A stretch of 64,000 bases of DNA from Baekduia alba. GTDB taxonomy: Bacteria > Actinomycetota > Thermoleophilia > Solirubrobacterales > Solirubrobacteraceae. The stretch spans positions 5,456,001 to 5,520,000 of the forward strand of contig NZ_CP114013.1 of NCBI RefSeq assembly GCF_028416635.1. The letters are read 5' to 3'. The notes below the pieces were generated by a model. It was not told where the DNA came from and searched no databases. It was given only the letters and a program-made list of their open reading frames with translations. A program made the position numbers and the translations under genes. Below are positions 43,029 through 43,229 of this stretch, piece after piece (the stretch's first letter is position 1; the number at the start of each line of letters is the position of its first letter).

Positions 43029-43229
43029 TACGCCCGACGGGAATCGAACCCGCATCGGCGGCTTAGGAGGCCGCTGCTCTTCAGATGTAACTCACGTTGG
43101 GGTCGAGCCTGAGCGACATCTCTGCTGAAGAGCCGCCGGCCGGGACGATGTCCCTCCAGCTTGAAGGCCCCGCTCACACTCCACGACAAACGCTCGCTTC
43201 TCACCCTTGACCATTTGAGCTACGGGCGC
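43029..43229 (-). tRNA. tRNA-Arg(CCU) with a ~128-nt insertion in the D-loop
   Basis: Both ends of one tRNA are present on the minus strand. The 5' acceptor strand is GCGCCCG (43229-43223), then TA and the D-stem strand GCTC (43220-43217) with AAATGGTCA. The second D-stem strand GAGC is at 43079-43076, followed by anticodon stem-loop GCGGC-CTCCTAA-GCCGC (anticodon CCU), T-arm GCGGG-TTCGATT-CCCGT, acceptor strand CGGGCGT (43036-43030) and discriminator A. All four stems pair correctly once about 128 nt between 43209 and 43080 are ignored; CCA is not encoded. The insert contains a long hairpin (GCTCTTC/GAAGAGC, AGATGT/ACATCT, GCTCA/TGAGT). Splicing after GGT and after CUG would satisfy the group I U/G rule, but the insert is far smaller than known group I introns. 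Confidence 0.75.
43080..43209 (-). other. Insert in the tRNA-Arg D-loop, intron candidate
   Basis: Insertion of about 128 nt; the exact borders are ambiguous by a few bases because AA occurs at both junctions. It folds into a small hairpin GGGAC-ATC-GTCCC (near 43143-43155) and a long imperfect hairpin at 43136-43076. The last helix of that hairpin uses the tRNA's own GAGC, so it competes with the D-stem. It has no open reading frame of note. No recognisable group I core (P3-P7) could be drawn by eye. Confidence 0.55.

Follow-up and report, generated by a model that had tools for sequence, protein, structure and literature searches.

In the pyrrolysine system, the dedicated synthetase PylRS and the structurally odd tRNAPyl are linked to the pylBCD genes for a non-standard amino acid, of which pylB rearranges lysine, and pyrrolysine is inserted at UAG. 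To our knowledge, this is the only system in which tRNA, synthetase and amino acid synthesis travel together. In bacteria, group I introns are a further case of a tRNA gene interrupted by a structured RNA. The allo-tRNAs and selC*-type tRNAs have altered acceptor/T arms with a 12-bp acceptor domain of the 8/4 or 9/3 form, and it has been suggested that SerRS recognizes them (Mukai et al., reviewed in PMC7609411). The synthetase paralog ProRSx is reported to insert proline at alanine codons (Vargas-Rodriguez 2021, cited in PMC9437257). SbzA and the cyclodipeptide synthases are synthetase relatives that act outside protein synthesis with an aminoacyl-tRNA as donor (PMC9437257).

Here, a 64,000-nt stretch of the Baekduia alba genome (contig NZ_CP114013.1, positions 5,456,001 to 5,520,000; referred to as the window) was analyzed, in which a tRNA gene with an enlarged D-loop lies beside two synthetase paralogs and lysine 5,6-aminomutase genes (Table 1). 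With the pyrrolysine system this locus shares a structurally odd tRNA, linked genes for a presumably non-standard amino acid and a putatively dedicated synthetase. In contrast, its synthetases are ArgRS- and LeuRS-like and belong to class I, whereas PylRS is an unrelated class II enzyme. Sense anticodons are found here instead of CUA, the D-loop carries a large arm and is not compact, and there is no known target codon comparable to UAG. Like the allo-tRNAs, the tRNAs described here are bacterial, abnormal in structure and equipped with many different anticodons, but their acceptor and T arms are normal (no 12-bp 8/4 or 9/3 domain) and the extra arm is located in the D-loop. ProRSx, likewise a synthetase paralog with a non-housekeeping coding role, has its own tRNA, but this tRNA is normal-shaped and the amino acid charged is a standard one, unlike what is proposed for the LeuRS- and ArgRS-like pairs. 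SbzA and the cyclodipeptide synthases use housekeeping tRNAs without a dedicated odd tRNA gene. The likeness to group I introns is limited by the missing group I match, the location in the D-loop and a 22-nt version that is too small for a ribozyme. In the open-access literature searched, no description of such a system was found; closest to it come the allo-tRNAs (PMC7609411) and duplicated synthetases, ProRSx among them (PMC9437257).

Table 1. Features of the tRNA locus and its flanking genes (positions within the window).
Feature	Position	Strand	Basis or remark
Intrinsic terminator: 10-bp stem, then TTTTTT	42975..42998	-	starts 31 nt downstream of the tRNA
Accessory tRNA gene, anticodon CCU, 137-nt D-loop, without encoded CCA	43029..43229	-	sequence, scanner, Rfam, family alignment
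tRNA 3′ part: GAGC D-stem strand, anticodon arm, T-arm, acceptor 3′ strand, discriminator A	43029..43082	-	sequence
Anticodon CCU	43065..43067	-	sequence
Inserted D-loop domain (proposed retained fifth arm)	43083..43206	-	alignment, consensus fold; ends +/- a few nt
Conserved insert helix: GGCC-UUCAA-GCUGG with CCGGC-GGC	43131..43169	-	family alignment
tRNA 5′ part: acceptor strand, U8 A9, D-stem 5′ strand, D-loop start	43207..43229	-	sequence
LeuRS-like paralog, HIGH and KMSKS lost (pseudo-enzyme)	43313..45082	+	Pfam, NCBIfam, alignment, tree
ArgRS-like paralog, LHVGHLRN intact, SSS replacing KMSKS	45097..46887	-	Pfam, alignment, tree
Lysine 5,6-aminomutase alpha subunit	46944..48623	+	NF052384 758 bits (cut-off 600); PF09043 E=1e-206
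Lysine 5,6-aminomutase beta subunit (B12-binding)	48616..49392	+	NF052385 349 bits (cut-off 280)
Lysine 5,6-aminomutase reactivase KamB	49379..50464	+	NF052386 285 bits (cut-off 210)

The tRNA gene has ordinary acceptor (GCGCCCG/CGGGCGU, 7 bp) and T stems (5 bp), a D-stem GCUC/GAGC and an anticodon stem GCGGC/GCCGC with the loop CUCCUAA. Besides the four stems, U33, the GG of the D-loop and a TTC[GA]A T-loop are present. Compared to a normal D-loop of 7-12 nt, the excess amounts to about 128 nt. The D-loop start in the 5′ part is AAAUGGUCAA and includes the G18 G19 pair; the start motif of this part is kept across the family as GUAGCUCAAnnGGUCAAnGG. ARAGORN did not call the gene in the window, and the Rfam tRNA model (35.5 bits) covered its 3′ part alone. 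A custom tRNA scanner permitting long D-loops gave a score of 44. Since Markov-shuffled window DNA (1.92 million strand-bases) yielded nothing that reached the threshold of this scanner, the gene is not regarded as a chance match. The long form is probably under-annotated, because it is missed by ARAGORN, a standard tRNA finder.

A preliminary description of this DNA had drawn the same cloverleaf, with all four stems forming once the excess is skipped, and had named the terminator; sequence and scanner agree on the former, and the latter was recovered as described. The upstream promoter it had claimed could not be reproduced: a consensus scan of the window gave no sigma-70-like promoter upstream of the tRNA, whereas good ones are located just upstream of the same tRNA in relatives (TTGACC-17-TATAAT in L164, TTGACT-18-TATACT in L146 and TTGACG-16-TACAAT in L181). 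The genome consists of one 5.86-Mb contig with 46 tRNA matches, the window gene included. A second tRNA-Arg(CCU), for which a search had been suggested, is present and ordinary (G000:C1:5785536-5785609), as are the other tRNAs called by ARAGORN. The window tRNA is thus accessory and dispensable for the reading of AGG. Just downstream of it, two large secreted-looking proteins are encoded on the minus strand (40658-42901 and 37857-40655), of which one has a weak WD40-like repeat match and the other no Pfam match.

Homologs were found through DNA similarity and the signature GUAGCUCAAnnGGUCAAnGG. Across 232 genomes of the order, the signature occurs at 10 exact and 2 one-mismatch places (reversed control: 2), and the window is the sole match to a slightly looser version among 396 genomes spread over the phylum. 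Comparable tRNAs were identified in about 44 genomes of the order, in an Acidimicrobiia MAG and in a Bacteroidota-labelled MAG, with D-loops that are either long (135-274 nt) or short and hairpin-bearing (31-32 nt). The D-loops measure 139-153 nt in seven genomes of g22 (which includes Conexibacter) and in G097, 142 nt in the second G081 copy, 146 nt in G192 and 147 nt in G216. Those of the distant MAGs, whose taxonomy is that of their bin labels, have 274 nt (Bacteroidota) as well as 135 and 180 nt (Acidimicrobiia). It is almost certain that these tRNAs form a conserved family. Pattern matches elsewhere in the genome-wide search (Fictibacillus, Marinomonas and others) were rejected as chance, no tRNA being present, and a viral origin was discarded as the sole viral match (L171) is no tRNA.

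The 11 long-insert tRNAs align over their full length. Every tRNA stem is 100% paired, with four of the five anticodon stem pairs doubly changed, and 98.7% of the scored structure is paired. The helices of the long insert reach 96.5% pairing with a covariation of 0.336 (shuffled: 0.216). Pairing is 94-98% in the closing and core helices and 96-98% in the conserved helix of Table 1 (alignment columns 62-77 with 107-116, 11 sequences); helices and closing position are common to the long inserts. By Rfam, neither a T-box nor any other known RNA family was found in the insert. A T-box-like GGGUGG string in the L172 insert was set aside, as it lacks Rfam support, and a pairing of the insert's GGUG with the tRNA 3′ end is absent, by eye, in the window and the second G081 copy.

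A short form occurs in the genera g14, g45 and g47, in 21 of 24 g14 genomes and in 14 genomes of family f3. Its D-loop of 31 or 32 nt holds a 7-bp hairpin as an extra arm of 22-23 nt, and the remaining stems are intact. Among 15 distinct sequences, the hairpin is 97.1% paired (shuffled: 76.1%) with a covariation of 0.691 (shuffled: 0.260), six of its seven pairs are changed on both sides, and slid controls drop sharply. Long and short arms start and close alike, following GGUCAAC-[GG...CC/CU]-AA-GAGC: in both forms G18-G19 lie in GGU(C/U)AA, and the extra helix opens with GG and closes just before (A)AGAGC. By tRNA numbering, the insertion site is the naturally variable D-loop stretch after G19. 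The long form appears to be the enlarged counterpart of the short one. Since the short-form genera are nested among long-form groups in the LeuRS-like tree, we infer that the long arm shrank to a hairpin that is still structured, a course of events that suits a retained arm better than an intron. A further D-loop hairpin tRNA (25-nt D-loop, anticodon UGU) was observed in a different actinobacterial family (G706; L298 460-548), 6.6 kb from a distant ArgRS-like gene; ARAGORN calls it tRNA-Leu(UAA).

From these sequence comparisons, retention of the D-loop arm in the mature tRNA is considered likely. The covariation alone is also compatible with excision of the insert. An intron of unknown type, either a small ribozyme or protein-spliced, would then leave the D-loop, and a dedicated synthetase would charge a normal-sized tRNA. 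The stems and a normal D-loop indeed result when the insert is skipped, its length varies from 22 to about 265 nt as that of introns does, and the exon body is the best conserved part. However, the Rfam intron families, group I and II included, gave no match at permissive thresholds (E-value limits: 10 for 42980-43280, 5 for L172). Furthermore, a 22-nt hairpin cannot accommodate a catalytic core, and still compensatory selection acts on its stem, and the closing position and the flanks GGUCAAC and AAGAGC are identical in short and long forms. Excision is accordingly rated as unlikely. Of the four options offered in the preliminary description, the comparative evidence favours the retained extra arm. 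The minimal group I intron is not supported, no Rfam family matching, and a recently broken gene is contradicted by a tRNA body and an insert that are conserved over deep divergence. Its reading of the gene is thus supported for the anatomy and for one of its options; the promoter in the window and the group I intron are not supported, and breakage is rejected. Absent from it were the flanking synthetase paralogs and lysine aminomutase genes, the context that explains the tRNA.

Both synthetase paralogs fall into clades separate from the housekeeping LeuRS and ArgRS (support 100/100 each). The LeuRS-like protein of the window retains the anticodon-binding bundle and a remnant editing domain. 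Its HIGH and KMSKS motifs are replaced or deleted, while those of 12 relatives are intact (HMGH, GRKMSKH). The members of the ArgRS-like clade retain LHxGHLR and PF00750 (12 of 12), and no Pfam match to the ArgRS N-terminal and DALR domains was obtained in any of these 12. In the tree of this clade, the distant rows L195, L297 and L298 form their own group on long branches, with unsure placement. Plasmid relatives are partial matches only (26-32% identical, several annotated as argS). In-frame TGA codons, considered as possible selenocysteine codons in ArgRS-like relatives, turned out to be the gene's own stop at the match end.

The tRNA adjoins the LeuRS-like gene at all 12 long-insert LeuRS-like loci (the window, seven g22 genomes, the second G081 copy, G097, G192 and G216). 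In family f3, the short-form tRNA was found in 14 of the 15 genomes with a LeuRS-like gene and in none of the 35 without (Fisher p=1.6e-11). In g14, g45 and g47, the short-hairpin tRNA lies apart from this gene, so that the pairing is one of co-occurrence. The class contributed 23 near-full-length ArgRS-like genes, and 18 of them are accompanied by a tRNA no more than about 250 nt away. This tRNA is ordinary-sized and carries the anticodon UCU, CCU, UAA, UGU or AGU; the window, G006, both G063 copies and G200 lack such a neighbour. In G232 and G233, a long-D-loop tRNA adjoins the ArgRS-like gene. It is therefore very probable that the tRNAs are tied to synthetase paralogs, and each synthetase may be dedicated to its linked tRNA. 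On one short contig (L143 474-545 and 4169-4240), two different tRNA genes with AGU anticodons were seen next to an ArgRS-like gene; in tRNAs other than tRNA-Arg, an A34 is uncommon.

The pairs are accompanied by different amino acid genes, of which lysine aminomutase, SbnA/SbnB, PabB, HypE/HypF and thrC match above curated cut-offs. The aminomutase alpha and beta genes are also found beside the ArgRS-like genes of G006 and G081; at the G081 locus there is also a tRNA that shares the anticodon CCU with the window tRNA but is of ordinary size. The LeuRS-like gene of G081 is flanked by SbnA and SbnB of 2,3-diaminopropionate synthesis, that of G192 and, by inspection, also that of G097 by HypE, HypF and a hydrolase, and that of g14, g45 and g47 by a threonine-synthase-like enzyme (thrC). 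An AurF-like protein in G216 scored under its cut-off. Beside the ArgRS-like gene of G232 lie aminodeoxychorismate synthase (PabB), chorismate mutase, an aminotransferase and, recognized by eye, a prephenate-dehydratase-like protein, a set partly common to g14 and g45. The presence of different pathways beside related synthetases suggests one particular unusual amino acid per pair, which the neighbouring genes would supply.

In the Bacteroidota-labelled MAG G232 (L296 8554-15144), the ArgRS-like gene, the tRNA with the 274-nt D-loop and the aminodeoxychorismate/chorismate-mutase pathway lie together; the pathway resembles the clusters of g14 and g45, and horizontal transfer or a misbinned contig is possible. 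HypE and HypF are hydrogenase nitrile-ligand enzymes. At L299 9349-13280 and L147 969-5001 they adjoin, together with an isochorismatase-type hydrolase, the LeuRS-like gene and a D-arm tRNA(UUG), which hints at an amino acid of nitrile or carbamoyl origin. At L139 2251-4337, a Conexibacter ArgRS-like/tRNA(UCU) pair is adjoined by a methyltransferase and by an ATP-grasp ligase akin to dapdiamide synthase (match to PRK07206 above its cut-off), candidates for a downstream peptide-forming step.

Taken as a whole, we moderately favour an orthogonal tRNA with a retained D-arm that would be charged by a dedicated paralog with a non-standard amino acid for a specialised use. The structured extra arm would be kept at the variable site after G18-G19 of an accessory tRNA, and the partner would be a divergent class I synthetase paralog, not a housekeeping enzyme. 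As the LeuRS-like protein of the window lacks HIGH and KMSKS, the ArgRS-like enzyme is the likely charger of the window tRNA, and the LeuRS-like protein may serve as a tRNA-binding partner. The arm may act as an identity element that keeps housekeeping synthetases off and the dedicated one on. It may also bar the charged tRNA from general translation, so that the aminoacyl group would feed a specialised reaction. The amino acid is probably a non-standard one and may be a lysine isomer that the neighbouring B12-dependent lysine 5,6-aminomutase produces; this enzyme could also simply serve lysine breakdown. Furthermore, the ArgRS-like genes of Conexibacter and others lie beside ordinary-sized tRNAs, and the window enzyme might use a different tRNA.

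The anticodons of the D-arm tRNAs vary (CCU, UAG, UUG, UUC, UAA, UGU and UUU) and differ inside each clade of synthetases. The 15 rarest codons of the window, which has a GC content of 72%, include those read by seven of the nine anticodons; AGG and GAA are used somewhat more often. Two readings offer themselves: the anticodon plays no part in decoding, or there is a preference for rare codons, be it to limit harm or for reassignment. The latter would fit a natural expansion of the code, in which the charged tRNA inserts a non-standard amino acid at a rare sense codon on the ribosome. This appears doubtful to us. The pyl-like arrangement of synthetase, tRNA and amino acid genes, the rarity of the codons read and the strictly conserved anticodon loop within the short-hairpin group are in line with it. 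On the other hand, anticodons differ among lineages sharing one synthetase clade, housekeeping tRNAs read the same codons, which would lead to broad mistranslation, and the large D-arm may not fit the ribosome. In addition, no convincing gene rich in the matching codon could be found near the loci. Only tentatively can the broader version be put forward, namely that several non-standard amino acids enter proteins at rare sense codons by means of five-armed tRNAs, each of which would have a pathway and an ArgRS- or LeuRS-derived synthetase to itself. Of the two modes of use, that off the ribosome is considered the likelier.

The window copy is the least typical member of the family, since its LeuRS-like gene is degenerate, and the pair at this locus may be undergoing decay. 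In that case, tRNA and LeuRS-like gene would be the functionless last pieces of a once-active pair, to which the lost HIGH and KMSKS motifs, the very long branch (2.25 changes per column) and the change of the anticodon to CCU would correspond. We regard this as rather improbable, because the stems and insert helices of the window tRNA are essentially intact, the LeuRS-like gene has an uninterrupted frame of 589 codons and a recognisable tRNA-binding domain, and the terminator is intact. A random insertion into an ordinary tRNA-Arg(CCU), on which the second intact gene would relax selection, is refuted by a homologous insert with conserved helices in relatives of several genera and families and by a synthetase paralog linked in every long-insert LeuRS-like case, and its probability is minimal.

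The apparently undescribed family of putatively five-armed tRNAs points to dedicated machinery for amino acids beyond the standard twenty. If the proposed orthogonal pairing is true, bacteria possess several independent, ready-made pairs of synthetase and tRNA that are coupled to the synthesis of unusual amino acids, with diaminopropionate, amino-aromatic and lysine-isomer residues as candidates. A tRNA D-loop could then host a large conserved RNA domain, and new orthogonal pairs would become available for engineering. Should the amino acids be inserted at rare codons, this would be a natural expansion of the genetic code beyond selenocysteine and pyrrolysine. How often nature exceeds twenty amino acids would become directly testable.
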